Shown here piece after piece: positions 32,610 through 37,109 of a DNA stretch of 38,013 nucleotides. Every line of letters starts with the position of its first letter. Position 1 is the stretch's first letter. The translations under genes were made by a program, and so were the position numbers. The stretch is from NCBI GenBank assembly GCA_027460465.1, contig JAPZAV010000171.1, positions 1-38,013 on the forward strand, given 5' to 3'. Source of the stretch: Candidatus Methanoperedens sp. (GTDB taxonomy: Archaea; Halobacteriota; Methanosarcinia; Methanosarcinales; Methanoperedenaceae). The notes under the pieces are model-generated. The model saw nothing but the letters and a program-made list of their open reading frames with translations, had not been told where the DNA came from and made no database searches.

Positions 32610-32780
32610 CATATCCAGCGGCATTCTGGGATTGGTGCTGAACTGGTTGAATTTAAATCACCGCAATGTTCGCAAAGAACACAAAGCGCCGCTGCATTGA
32701 TCTTTGCGACCTTCGCGTTCTTGGCGGTGTGCGTTCTGAGTTACCCCAACAGGTTTGTGGACGCTAAGATTAATAATAGT
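32610..32780. repeat. Dispersed repeat, copy B (uninterrupted)
   Basis: This matches both blocks of the repeat at 21262-21575 without the middle segment. It includes GAACTGGTTGAATTTAAATC, GTTCGCAAAGAACACAAAGC, ATCTTTGCGACCTTCGCGTT and GTGTGCGTTCTGAGTTACC. The middle is itself an imperfect inverted repeat (CGCAAAGAACACAAAG against CTTCGCGTTCTTGGCG). It lies between cysS and the MNT/HEPN pair, and its reading frame creates a spurious N-terminal extension on the MNT gene. Confidence 0.8.
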
Positions 32781-32807
32781 CTGCTGCATGACAATCGATT
32801 AAATATT

Positions 32808-33320
32808 ATGAGCTGTATTGATAATAATATGATACAGGATCTTCTGAACAGATACGCAGAGCTCTTAAAAGAATTCTTTGGAGAAAGGCTTCTGAGCGCG
32901 GCTGTTTTTGGATCGGTTGCCAGGGGGACTGCGAAGTTTCCGCAAAGTGATATTGATGTACTGACAGTCCTGGAAGGTATAGAGAAATTATCACTCGGAG
33001 AACGATTGAAACTGACGGGCAAGGTCGAAGAGGAACTATCAAAAACCAGAGCATATAAAGAATTCAAAGATGTCTCTGGAAGGCGCCCCCATATCCAGGA
33101 AATAATATTCTCCCCTGAGGAGCTCAGGGCTCATCCTCCTATCCTTCTGGATATGACCAGCGATGTCATAATACTCCATGATACAGGCATCCTGAGACAG
33201 GAACTTGACAAACTTAAAAAGAGGCTTCAGGAACTTGGAGCCAGACGAGTGGTACGCGGTGATTCATGGTTCTGGATATTGAAACCTGATTTGAAGCCTG
33301 GAGAAATCGTGGAACTATGA
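32808..33320 (+). CDS. Minimal nucleotidyltransferase (MNT), antitoxin-type
   Basis: A protein of about 170 residues with a nucleotidyltransferase core: AAVFGSVARGTAKFPQSDIDVL contains the GS and DxD catalytic residues, and the C terminus [21 protein letters not shown] is typical of the archaeal group paired with HEPN proteins. In such pairs MNT proteins neutralise the HEPN partner, in studied cases by adenylylating it. A longer frame from 32697 begins inside the dispersed repeat, so ATG at 32808 (or 32829) is taken as the start. It overlaps the HEPN gene in ATGA. Confidence 0.88.
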   Translation: MSCIDNNMIQDLLNRYAELLKEFFGERLLSAAVFGSVARGTAKFPQSDIDVLTVLEGIEKLSLGERLKLTGKVEEELSKTRAYKEFKDVSGRRPHIQEIIFSPEELRAHPPILLDMTSDVIILHDTGILRQELDKLKKRLQELGARRVVRGDSWFWILKPDLKPGEIVEL

Positions 33321-33757
33321 ACACCAGAATGATGGCGCAGGATTACATGAAAAGAGCCAGAAGGTGTTTTAAAGAAAGTAAAGACGCATTTGAGGATAAG
33401 GATTATCCTGTTACGATAAGAAGAGCCCAGGAATGTGTTGAGATGAGCTTAAAAGCAGTTCTCAGAGGTACCTCAGTGGAATACCCGAAGGAACATGATG
33501 TAAGCGATACACTTGAAATTGTAATGGAAAAATTTCCAGACTGGTTCTCTTCCAGGATCCCTGAGTTCATGAGAATATCAAAAGATCTGAGCAAAAAAAG
33601 AGGTCCTGCACTGTATGGCTATGAAGCGCGCCTTACGCCTGCATCTGATATTTTCAGCAAAAATGATGCCGATGAGGCTTTGATGTCAGCAGAAAAAATT
33701 TTTGATGCATGCACCAGATTGATCAATGAAATGTTTGAAAACTTCACTTCCTTCTGA
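33317..33757 (+). CDS. HEPN-domain protein (probable toxin partner)
   Basis: A 146-residue all-helical HEPN protein. [19 protein letters not shown] and [21 protein letters not shown] are the first two helices, and [20 protein letters not shown] lies at the usual active-site loop. The classical R-x4-6-H RNase motif is not present there; only Arg and YGYE are seen, so RNase activity is uncertain. The start overlaps the MNT stop by 4 bp, and the 3' end overlaps the convergent PDCD5 gene by 14 bp. Confidence 0.85.
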
Positions 33758-34611: not shown

Positions 34612-34866
34612 TTACGTTTTTCGGCGAAACACCGCTGTATTTCCCCTGACATCAATAAGTTCCGAGTCGGTCAATCTCGCCAGTTTTTCTGCAAGTTCCT
34701 GTCTGTTCCCTTCTACAAAAGCGGTTTTAAGGAATTTTATTTTTACCAGCCTTTTATTCTTTAATTGCTTCTTCAATTCCTCAACCGCGCTCTCGATACC
34801 CGATTTGCCAATGTGCAACGTTGGTTCAAGTTCGGTGGATGCTGATCTGTATTCCTGTTTATTCAT
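34612..34866 (-). CDS. YhbY-like CRM-domain RNA-binding protein
   Basis: An 84-residue single CRS1/YhbY (CRM) domain, with ELEPTLHIGKSGIESAVEEL and the KIKFLKTAF strand followed by RTGG-like loop residues and NTAVFRRK. YhbY binds pre-50S particles in bacteria; archaeal copies usually lie next to ribosomal and RNase P genes. Its ATG overlaps the Roadblock stop by 4 bp, so translation is coupled to the signalling module upstream. Confidence 0.92.
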   Translation of the reverse strand: MNKQEYRSASTELEPTLHIGKSGIESAVEELKKQLKNKRLVKIKFLKTAFVEGNRQELAEKLARLTDSELIDVRGNTAVFRRKT

Positions 34867-35231
34867 GTAAGCAGCTCTTTGACTTTCAGTGCTGCTTTTT
34901 CAAGTTCCAGGAGTATCAGTCCCAATCCAGTATTTGAATCCACAAGAACAATGAGCAGTGCTTTGGGCCCTGCTCCGACAGCAATCAACTTTCCCTGATC
35001 AGATTCCACAATAACGCGATTGGGTACACCTTTTCCAAGCTCTATGGTGGCGGTCTCTGCTGCTCCGAGCATTGTCGCAGCCATAGCAGCAAAGGATTCA
35101 GCGAATTGTTGTTTTTGAATAATACCTCGAATAAGCAATCCATCACGACTTACAGCAGCGCATGCTTCCACTCCTCCTGTCTTCCTCAGATTTTCGAGTA
35201 TTTCATCCAGTATATCAATTATATCGGGCAT
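34863..35231 (-). CDS. Roadblock/LC7-domain protein (MglB-like)
   Basis: A 122-residue Roadblock/LC7 protein: a helix (DILDEILENLRKTGGVEACAAVS), the central strands RDGLLIRG and RVIVESDQGKLIAVGAGPKALLIVLV, and a final helix. Roadblock proteins dimerise and act as GTPase-activating or scaffolding partners of small GTPases such as MglA or CvnD. The gene immediately upstream, overlapping by one base (TGATG), encodes just such a GTPase, so this is very probably its partner. Confidence 0.92.
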   Translation of the reverse strand: MPDIIDILDEILENLRKTGGVEACAAVSRDGLLIRGIIQKQQFAESFAAMAATMLGAAETATIELGKGVPNRVIVESDQGKLIAVGAGPKALLIVLVDSNTGLGLILLELEKAALKVKELLT

Positions 35232-36403
35232 CAGATCCTTCCTTCAGTAATTTTATCGATCAATACTTCAAAAGCCTCAAAGACACCCTTTTTATCCGTT
35301 GCAACTACAGAGACTATAGGTATGTCCTGCGGCAGATTAAATTGCTTTCGGATTTCTTCGGGCGCCATAGCACCTGGCAAATCCTGCTTGTTCGCCACCA
35401 CAACCATAGGTAATCCATAGGATTTGGTGATCTCAAGCATCTGTTTTGCACGGACAAAATCGGTTGGGTTTGTGGAATCAACAATAAGAAAAACGCCCAT
35501 GGATTCACCGCTCAGGAGTTTTATGATCGGGTCGAACCGTTCCTGACCAGGCGTTCCGAAAATATCGGCACTGAAACCTTTATAATCCACATGACCGTGG
35601 TCCAGAGCAATCGTCGTCCCAAGCCTGTCCACAGATATCGCCCTGGTTGACAGCGCATGCACGAAAGTGGTTTTTCCTGAGTCGAATGGGCCTGTTACGA
35701 GAATCTTTGGGATGTATAATTTTATCCCTCCAGGGCGCAATACCCTGAAAAGCATTGACTTTTTTATTTCTTTTGTCCAGTCGGATTTGAGTATCCCGAA
35801 ATACTGCCCAAAGATGACGCGCTCTGCTATGCCTCCGATAGATATTACTGCATTGAACAGGTCTCCTTTTATTGAGTTCAGTGTTTCCTCTGAATATGGC
35901 CATGCTGTGAAATTATAGATCATGACATGATCGTACAGCATCGCCATTTTATTCCAGTCCCTGACAGCACTGATCGTTTCTTTCTCTCCGCACAGGTCTA
36001 TTATGGTGGAGAGAGAGCCGAACACTATGGTGGTCGGCGGCGAATCTTTAATGATATTAATGATCATTTTACTGAACTCTTCGATACTTTCAGGATTTGA
36101 GACTACATATTTTTCTTTCGATGGGGCACCAATCAAAGGGTCATAGGCATCAACGCAAAAGAATGTTTCATTATAAGAATTAATATCCCAGCCAAATTCC
36201 TTGAACTGACCTCTAATGATGTCAGGAATCGTGCTTGATACCACAAAGATGCAGTTCCTCCCGTTTTTTAAGGCACTATAAACTGTTTGCATCCCGAAAA
36301 CCTCGCCTTCCACTCCGGGCTGGATAAAATAAACAAGGCTTTTCCCCTTAGGCATGCCGCCGCCAAGGAATTCATCCAGTTTTGGAATACCTGTCTCGAT
36401 CAT
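35231..36403 (-). CDS. KaiC/RecA-like domain fused to a Ras-like small GTPase
   Basis: A 390-residue fusion. Residues 1-230 are a KaiC/GvpD-type RecA fold (TGIPKLDEFLGGGMPKGKSLVYF) whose P-loop is degenerate (IQPGVEGEVFG, no Lys), so it probably does not hydrolyse ATP normally. Residues about 232-390 are a small GTPase of the COG2229/SR-beta-like group: G1 GPFDSGKTT (Lys244), G2 region RLGTTIALDHG, G3 DIFGTPGQERF, G4 NKQD and G5 VATD. It is sandwiched between the KaiC-like gene (1-bp gap) and the Roadblock gene (1-bp overlap). Inferred role: a nucleotide switch whose state is read or set by its fused RecA fold and its Roadblock partner. Confidence 0.88.
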   Translation of the reverse strand: MIETGIPKLDEFLGGGMPKGKSLVYFIQPGVEGEVFGMQTVYSALKNGRNCIFVVSSTIPDIIRGQFKEFGWDINSYNETFFCVDAYDPLIGAPSKEKYVVSNPESIEEFSKMIINIIKDSPPTTIVFGSLSTIIDLCGEKETISAVRDWNKMAMLYDHVMIYNFTAWPYSEETLNSIKGDLFNAVISIGGIAERVIFGQYFGILKSDWTKEIKKSMLFRVLRPGGIKLYIPKILVTGPFDSGKTTFVHALSTRAISVDRLGTTIALDHGHVDYKGFSADIFGTPGQERFDPIIKLLSGESMGVFLIVDSTNPTDFVRAKQMLEITKSYGLPMVVVANKQDLPGAMAPEEIRKQFNLPQDIPIVSVVATDKKGVFEAFEVLIDKITEGRI

Positions 36404-36404
36404 G

Positions 36405-37109
36405 CTATATACTCCCCACTATCTTGATGTTCGCTCCATCTATCTCGAATTCAAACCAGGGGGTAGGTTTTGGAGATAGCCCGACTATCCTGATATAATT
36501 CTTATCGTTCTCAGATTTTACCTCGATCATGCCGTCAAATAGCTGCTTCAGGGTGGCAATAGACTGTTCGTCATGCATGCCGCTCTCTATCATATATATC
36601 CCAAGAGCCCCTGCAGATTTTATGCGCCCTGTGAAAACGTGAAGAAACCTGAAAACTGTCTGGATGTTTGAATACATCAGTATGGTAGAAAGTGAATTGA
36701 TATGAAGCTGGGTCTTCCGAATGTTCTTTTTCATGACATATTCTTCAAAGAACTGGCTTATTTTCACCCCGATTCCTGTTAAGTCCACAGGGCTGCTTGC
36801 TATTTTTATATTTTCAGTTTCCACCGCTGCTCCACCAAGCGTTTTTGTGACGCAGTCCACTATACCGATCCTTGTCAATGGGAGGACCAGTCTGTGTTCT
36901 TTGAACCAATCCAGAATATGAGTCGCAGATTCGCGGGTTGTTACCATTATTACAGCATTTTCAGTTACTGCTGAACCATGATACATTATATAATAGAGAA
37001 TTACTTCTTTTCCGCTCATGGGCGGACCTATCATCATTATATTCGAGCCCTTTCTTATACCCCCTATAGCATTATCCAGTTCCTTGATACCCAGCGTGTA
37101 ATCGCTCAT
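36405..37109 (-). CDS. KaiC-like RecA-superfamily ATPase
   Basis: A 234-residue single-domain RecA/KaiC-like protein. It begins SDYTLGIKELDNAIGGIRKG and has a Walker A-like GPPMSGKE (residues 28-35) in which the usual T/S after Lys34 is Glu. Walker B is also weak (LHINSLSTILMYS). Similar KaiC-like or 'HTR-like' proteins in euryarchaea accompany signalling genes. It is the first gene of the operon: a TATA-like TTTATATATAC lies upstream on the minus strand near 37150-37160, with GGCAGGAC before the ATG. Confidence 0.85.
   Translation of the reverse strand: MSDYTLGIKELDNAIGGIRKGSNIMMIGPPMSGKEVILYYIMYHGSAVTENAVIMVTTRESATHILDWFKEHRLVLPLTRIGIVDCVTKTLGGAAVETENIKIASSPVDLTGIGVKISQFFEEYVMKKNIRKTQLHINSLSTILMYSNIQTVFRFLHVFTGRIKSAGALGIYMIESGMHDEQSIATLKQLFDGMIEVKSENDKNYIRIVGLSPKPTPWFEFEIDGANIKIVGSI

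Follow-up and report, generated by a model that had tools for sequence, protein, structure and literature searches.

The 38,013-nucleotide stretch analysed here (hereafter the window) is contig 171 (JAPZAV010000171.1) of a Candidatus Methanoperedens sp. genome comprising 176 contigs (GCA_027460465.1). A check of its open reading frames (ORFs) identified a module of three minus-strand genes, which encode a KaiC-like protein (the lead gene), a fusion of a KaiC-like RecA fold to a Ras-like GTPase, and a Roadblock/LC7 protein. The lead and fusion genes are 1 bp apart and the fusion and Roadblock genes overlap by 1 bp, which reproduces the exact coordinates of the three coupled genes in an earlier reading of the sequence alone (the sequence-only reading). 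A 4-bp overlap between the Roadblock gene and a following YhbY gene, absent from that account, extends the run, and genes for ribosomal protein S19e and then a PDCD5-like protein come after it. The features are as follows, in window coordinates.

36405..37109, minus strand: lead gene, KaiC-like (DUF7504/KaiC), 234 amino acids (aa), predicted inactive ATPase
37005..37028, minus strand: degenerate Walker A motif of the lead, GPPMSGKE (Lys retained, Glu for Ser/Thr)
35231..36403, minus strand: KaiC-GTPase fusion, 390 aa
35732..36403, minus strand: N-terminal pseudo-KaiC (RecA-fold) domain of the fusion, residues ~1-224
36302..36325, minus strand: lost Walker A site IQPGVEGE, pseudo-KaiC residues 27-34
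35234..35731, minus strand: C-terminal Ras/Arf/MglA-like GTPase domain of the fusion, residues ~225-390
35669..35692, minus strand: GTPase G1/P-loop, GPFDSGKT
35534..35560, minus strand: GTPase G3, FGTPGQERF (Gly at the Ras Asp57 position; catalytic Gln retained)
35381..35392, minus strand: GTPase G4, NKQD
34863..35231, minus strand: Roadblock/LC7 (MglB-like) protein, 122 aa
35139..35144, minus strand: Asp-Gly pair of the Roadblock protein (SRDG)
34612..34866, minus strand: YhbY/CRS1 RNA-binding protein

The domain calls of the sequence-only reading were borne out by Pfam. The lead protein matched DUF7504 (1.2e-24) and KaiC (1.1e-8), and the fusion matched KaiC (6e-19), Arf (4.5e-14) and Ras (7e-11), with the profile scores favouring Arf over Ras, as well as NCBIfam TIGR00231 small_GTP at a score exceeding its cut-off (8.7e-16). 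The AlphaFold2 model of the fusion, built from a 60-row alignment, has two confident domains (predicted local distance difference test (pLDDT) 91.9, predicted template modelling (TM) score (pTM) 0.85). Foldseek matched the pseudo-KaiC domain to the RecA/KaiC-like ATPase PH0284 (2dr3; target TM 0.84, E 5.9e-19), and Arf-family GTPases are also among the PDB matches of the fusion. The lead model (pLDDT 95, pTM 0.91) has the same fold as the pseudo-KaiC domain, with Foldseek matches to 2dr3, KaiC CI and FlaH (4yds); lead and fused domain alike are modelled with a RecA/KaiC fold. The third gene product exceeded the cut-off for Robl_LC7 (PF03259, 2.1e-13), and its matches among solved chains include Roadblock/LC7 proteins, CvnB5 and MglB; at 20.2 bits, against the at least 200 required, it is not a member of the bacterial MglB equivalog (NF052242). 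Three more Roadblock genes are found in the same genome (L001, L003 and L004; 58%, 40% and 45% identical to that of the module), with 3.3-kb flanks that contain no fusion gene.

The order lead-fusion-Roadblock-YhbY-S19e-PDCD5 was kept in 30 of 30 close relatives, drawn from the same genus plus one member of the same family. The private assembly or annotation error that the sequence-only reading had allowed for can be set aside on this conserved order, and chance adjacency was rejected on the same order together with linkage across archaea, as the arrangement far exceeds chance. Fusion carriers made up 71 of 393 genomes of the Halobacteriota-type phylum (cut-off E<=1e-20) and include Archaeoglobaceae, ANME-2 (anaerobic methanotrophic) and other Methanosarcinales, and Methanomicrobiales; within this sample no fusion was detected at that cut-off in the listed genomes of family f5, which belongs to the same order as the window. 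A Roadblock gene was present in 69/71 carriers versus 79/322 non-carriers, a comparison uncorrected for phylogenetic relatedness. At a cut-off of E<=1e-60 in the other sampled phyla, the fusion was identified in 18/152 genomes in the phylum of a Methanobacteriaceae-labelled genome, 30/194 in that of a Thermoplasmata-labelled genome, 7/195 in that of a Jordarchaeia (Asgard) genome, 9/194 in that of a Parvarchaeota-labelled genome and 7/145 in that of a Micrarchaeota-labelled genome, along with single Altiarchaeota and Aenigmatarchaeota records. The trio recurs across at least six archaeal phyla, and the fusion genes themselves come from Halobacteriota, Methanobacteriota, Thermoplasmata, Asgard and a number of DPANN groups. 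The relatives returned by the searches also include standalone bacterial GTPases, some of which adjoin Roadblock genes.

Linkage was counted over 155 distinct fusion genes, with a neighbouring Roadblock gene defined as lying on the same strand within 300 bp and a neighbouring KaiC gene as lying within 300 bp. A KaiC gene adjoins 143 of the 155. Among the 135 fusions from outside the Methanomicrobiales, 125 have an adjacent Roadblock gene, the archaea-wide neighbourhood on which the earlier proposal hinged; an adjacent KaiC gene occurs in 123, and both neighbours in 116. Among the 10 with no Roadblock gene in range are a triple fusion, four in which the Roadblock gene lies slightly farther away and several truncated by contig ends. 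The 20 Methanomicrobiales-type fusions all have an adjacent KaiC gene (20/20) and none has an adjacent Roadblock gene (0/20); by eye, the neighbours at these loci (L091-L106, L141-L146) resemble ferrous-iron transport (FeoA/FeoB-like) and diphthine synthase genes. Median gaps are -1 bp between fusion and Roadblock and 0 bp between fusion and KaiC, and the Roadblock gene is downstream of the fusion in 90 cases and upstream in 35. The orders found include lead-fusion-Roadblock, Roadblock-fusion-KaiC(-KaiC), Roadblock-diverged lead-fusion and KaiC-fusion-Roadblock-KaiC, a permutation between lineages that implies linkage retained or rebuilt through rearrangement.

Several variants of the module were identified. 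In the triple fusion, at L103 (5752-7392, on a single 2,957,635-bp contig), KaiC, GTPase and Roadblock (PF03259, 7.6e-13) are encoded by one 546-aa ORF. Genomes with two modules carry two matched partner sets, and all parts of the second module cluster with those of other second modules. This second module type (type 2) is found at L088-L090 in ANME-2-related genomes, with the order Roadblock-fusion-KaiC, adjoining repeated-PAS proteins that have a weak STAS match. In a congener of the window organism (L107, G004:C28), a second fusion has an internal insertion and extra KaiC-like genes around it, and lacks a Roadblock gene. At L140 (2118-7189, Jordarchaeia), the run consists of a sub-threshold KaiB/thioredoxin-like gene, KaiC, fusion, Roadblock and KaiC, followed by a Ras-family GTPase gene (PF00071, 2e-57).

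The GTPase half of the fusion retains its nucleotide-binding motifs with little exception. Both Gly residues and the Lys of G1 are each present in 155/155 fusions, the switch-I Thr in 152/155, the equivalent of Gln61 in 148/155 and Gly at the Ras Asp57 position in 155/155, and in the NKxD motif Asn is found in 155/155 and Asp in 150/155. The position next to the G2 Thr, which holds Arg in group-1 MglA, is Thr in 131/155 fusions. MglA groups 2-5 have as their signature GTPGQ together with Thr replacing the group-1 Arg, and their Roadblock partners are marked by an Asp-Gly pair (PMC4316618). The module has GTPGQ in G3, Thr in G2 (TT) and a Roadblock with the Asp-Gly pair (D in 73/87 and G in 87/87 module Roadblocks); at 390 aa the fusion falls outside the single-domain limit of <=240 aa, which is an inclusion rule of the survey and not a mechanistic requirement. 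It is this signature, together with the matching Asp-Gly pair, that makes an MglA/MglB-type GTP switch the likeliest reading. An Arg four residues N-terminal of the switch Thr is present in 146/155 fusions; a role for this residue as an intrinsic arginine finger would be speculative.

The nucleotide sites of the two RecA folds have fared differently. At the aligned P-loop of the fused KaiC domain, the canonical Walker A K[ST] was found in 1/155 fusions and is lost in 154/155. A simple regular expression for Walker A matched 62 fusions, which is best explained by an upstream GGxPxGKS stretch and not by the P-loop; these matches were discounted because only one fusion has K[ST] at the aligned position. 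The state of the lead depends on lineage. In Methanoperedens and ANME-2 it has GKE or GKD, mostly with Asn for the Walker B Asp; the window lead has GKE in place of GK[ST], and Asn replaces the Walker B Asp in its genus. The lead has lost the Walker A Lys in Methanomicrobiales and is also degenerate in Nanoarchaeota relatives (GKE/GKD or Lys lost among the degenerate lineages), whereas in Archaeoglobaceae and type-2 modules it mostly has GKS with the Walker B Asp. From this lineage-wise loss, ATP use by the lead has probably decayed in several lineages, unlike the GTPase. ATP-hydrolysing RecA domains were rejected for the window organism on these motifs, and the nucleotide sensing put forward in the sequence-only reading is not supported there for the RecA folds, since the loss of Walker A in the fused domain and the degenerate lead make ATP sensing by them unlikely. 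As judged from its motifs, the GTPase is the sole intact nucleotide site of the module in the window organism.

We favour the explanation that the three genes work together as an archaeal GTP switch of the MglA/MglB type, with the Roadblock as GTPase-activating protein (GAP) and the KaiC folds as a non-catalytic platform, to which we assign a probability of roughly 0.72. The GTPase half of the fusion would alternate between GTP and GDP states, and the Roadblock, probably as a homodimer, would contact the switch regions of the GTP-bound form and accelerate hydrolysis. The pseudo-KaiC domain and the separate lead protein, predicted not to hydrolyse ATP in the window organism, would provide a platform for assembly and docking that positions the GTPase at its target and reads its state; this platform is probably a homo- or hetero-oligomer resembling KaiC/ArlH. 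This explanation is supported by the gene linkage and its persistence through rearrangement, the higher share of genomes with a Roadblock gene among fusion carriers (uncorrected for relatedness), the Asp-Gly pair of the module Roadblocks, the L103 triple fusion, the matched second modules, the GTPase motifs, the lost Walker A and the two confidently folded domains. MfpD, a Roadblock protein, is a GAP of the group-2 GTPase MfpB (PMC9769811). We infer GAP activity and dimerisation of the module Roadblock by analogy with the MglA-MglB and MfpB-MfpD pairs, and more weakly that the KaiC platform is oligomeric and that type IV filaments at the surface are the output. Inputs may differ by lineage: PAS-STAS proteins are candidates where they flank type-2 modules, as are V4R proteins in Archaeoglobaceae and at a single locus from the Thermoplasmata phylum.

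A number of points weigh against this explanation. Roadblock proteins can also serve as scaffolds, as in Ragulator, and the GAP role of the Roadblock on the adjacent GTPase is a prediction by analogy. The 20 Methanomicrobiales fusions keep a KaiC partner without an adjacent Roadblock, although most such genomes encode one elsewhere, and the L103 triple fusion has GTPGH for GTPGQ, its catalytic Gln and Roadblock Asp having been lost together. Roadblock proteins may also act in exchange, and one report states a guanine-nucleotide exchange role for MglB (PMC11016934).

The output of the switch may be the control of type IV filaments, in an archaeal counterpart of MglA pilus control whereby the KaiC parts would dock, in ArlH-like fashion, onto an ATPase of the VirB11/PilB type, while timing or placement of filament-machine activity would fall to the GTPase. 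This possibility narrows the output of the favoured explanation, and we hold it tentatively, as somewhat doubtful. It draws on L257 (8465-14281), a locus in a Nanoarchaeota-phylum genome with the same-strand run T2SSE-T2SSF-T2SSF-fusion-124 aa-Roadblock, on genomes G695, G849, G653 and G671, where T2SSE is ~3-12 kb from the fusion, and on Methanobacteriota, where pilin-like genes with class III-type N-termini, found by eye and regular expression and without a Pfam match, are directly upstream of the Roadblock. KaiC families arCOG01172/01173 and Roadblock arCOG02603 are also found in archaeal type IV pilus loci (PMC4858521), and the motor ATPase ArlI is under the control of ArlH, a KaiC-like protein (PMC8978795). 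However, most lineages, Methanoperedens, Archaeoglobaceae and Methanocella-like ones among them, have no recognised pilus genes beside the module, and G132 has a module without a detected T2SSE (genome 86% complete). T2SSE is near-universal in archaea and lies <=12 kb from the fusion in 5/38 genomes versus ~1.4 by a rough chance estimate; being only modestly above chance, this proximity leaves the pilus link suggestive. Farther downstream at L257, more Roadblock genes alternate with ~300-340-aa proteins, one of which is ABC_sub_bind-like. A timer in which the separate KaiC is an active autokinase/ATPase and the GTPase its output, akin to a KaiC clock or redox-type hub, would fit the GKS and Walker B Asp that Archaeoglobaceae and type-2 leads mostly retain, as well as the KaiB/thioredoxin-like gene that precedes the Jordarchaeia module, but that match falls below the Pfam cut-off, and the leads of the window's genus, of ANME-2, of Methanomicrobiales and of Nanoarchaeota relatives are degenerate; we give this timer little credence.

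In a scaffold resembling Rag/Ragulator or TRAPP, the Roadblock and, in some lineages, V4R would tether the GTPase to a ligand-sensing platform and control nucleotide exchange, not hydrolysis. V4R genes (PF02830, TRAPPC3-related) directly follow the Roadblock in Archaeoglobaceae (L079-L084, with a few-bp overlap or gap) and one lies between Roadblock and fusion at L208 (2657-3175, Thermoplasmata phylum), and the Roadblock of L103 is C-terminal to the GTPase, as it is in Rag GTPases. The TRAPPC3/Bet3 component has been proposed to descend from V4R (PMC2253512). We nevertheless judge such a scaffold unlikely: V4R is missing from the module in most lineages, the window included, and is also widespread as a ligand-binding domain in unrelated regulators, and the module GTPase is MglA-like (GTPGQ), not Rag-like. 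At L131 (1151-1792) another V4R gene is found upstream. The location of the module in a probable YhbY-S19e-PDCD5 ribosomal operon could suggest a role in ribosome assembly or translation control, and the 4-bp overlap, a gene order that every sampled Methanoperedens keeps past S19e as far as PDCD5, and translation-type neighbours elsewhere (TruD upstream at L069, a downstream class I tRNA synthetase at L085 and a methionyl-tRNA synthetase-like gene near Methanobacteriota modules) point the same way. YhbY (Pfam 1.5e-17) is kept in Methanoperedens and ANME-2 relatives and is probably an operon continuation in the window's order only, and no YhbY was seen next to modules of other lineages. Given that neighbours vary by lineage (FeoB-like, siroheme-like, pilin-like and citrate lyase genes) while KaiC and Roadblock are constant, co-expression with housekeeping genes suffices to explain the location, and a ribosomal role seems improbable. 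Elsewhere in the window (32697-33757), two neighbouring ORFs look nucleotidyltransferase-like and HEPN-like by eye and may form an MNT/HEPN toxin-antitoxin pair.

Going beyond the favoured explanation, the module could represent an ancient archaeal switch, with a range that takes in at least Halobacteriota, Methanobacteriota and Thermoplasmata as well as Asgard and DPANN lineages, in which an ArlH-like ring of KaiC-like pseudo-ATPases carries an MglA-type GTPase under regulation by Roadblock and sometimes V4R; the switch would steer type IV filament motors and be a prokaryotic forerunner, outside Asgard, of Roadblock/TRAPPC3-regulated GTPases; we consider this a long shot. Few signalling systems have been characterised in archaea, and the favoured explanation, if true, would add a new regulatory system whose parts have links with polarity in bacteria (MglA/B), KaiC hubs in archaea and Rag/TRAPP regulation in eukaryotes. 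In line with the sequence-only reading, which had called the module uncharacterised, our literature search found no publication describing a KaiC-GTPase-Roadblock unit, although it did not cover the KaiC hubs of Makarova et al. 2017, which could list the fusion; the trio appears to be undescribed as a unit. That work reportedly proposed that KaiC homologues whose ATPase domains are inactivated act as hubs for numerous partners. On the sequences compared, what is new in the module is the fused pseudo-KaiC domain without Walker A and the second KaiC as a fixed partner.

Conserved linkage supports the resemblance to MglA-MglB and to bacterial conservons, with a RecA fold attached and a second KaiC alongside, that was noted in the sequence-only reading. 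The module shares with MglA-MglB the adjacent GTPase and Roadblock genes, the TT and GTPGQ of MglA groups 2-5 and the Asp-Gly pair, and differs in that a pseudo-KaiC domain precedes the GTPase in the same protein and a KaiC-like partner gene is almost always present; unlike group-1 MglA, the GTPase has no intrinsic Arg beside the Thr of G2. The Group 4 MglA proteins described by Wuichet and Sogaard-Andersen are likewise archaeal, with GTPGQ and without a long G1-G2 insertion; their 2014 survey of prokaryotic Ras-like GTPases took proteins of <=240 aa, and thus excluded the 390-aa fusion, and reported no conserved neighbours for this group (PMC4316618). The Streptomyces and Mycobacterium conservons (CvnA-D, Mfp) also combine a Roadblock and an MglA-type GTPase in an operon with further fixed partners, but these are a histidine-kinase-like sensor and DUF742 where the module has two KaiC folds. 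Neither CvnA histidine-kinase-like nor CvnC DUF742 proteins were among the classified neighbours in the window or sampled relatives, and PAS-STAS sensors occur in the archaeal module only beside type-2 modules. The RecA/KaiC fold of the lead and fused domain is that of ArlH/FlaH and PH0284 (2dr3), and ArlH does not hydrolyse ATP (PMC8978795), as proposed for the KaiC folds of the module, yet ArlH has no fused GTPase or Roadblock, and the fused domain of the module has no Walker A. Asgard Roadblock, GTPase and TRAPPC3 proteins belong to the same families, V4R/TRAPPC3 included, but in MK-D1 their genes are generally outside operons (PMC10933270), whereas those of the module are tightly linked and mostly non-Asgard. 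As this scattering makes GTPase-regulator pairs hard to assign in Asgard archaea (PMC10933270), the module offers a concrete and testable pair of this kind.

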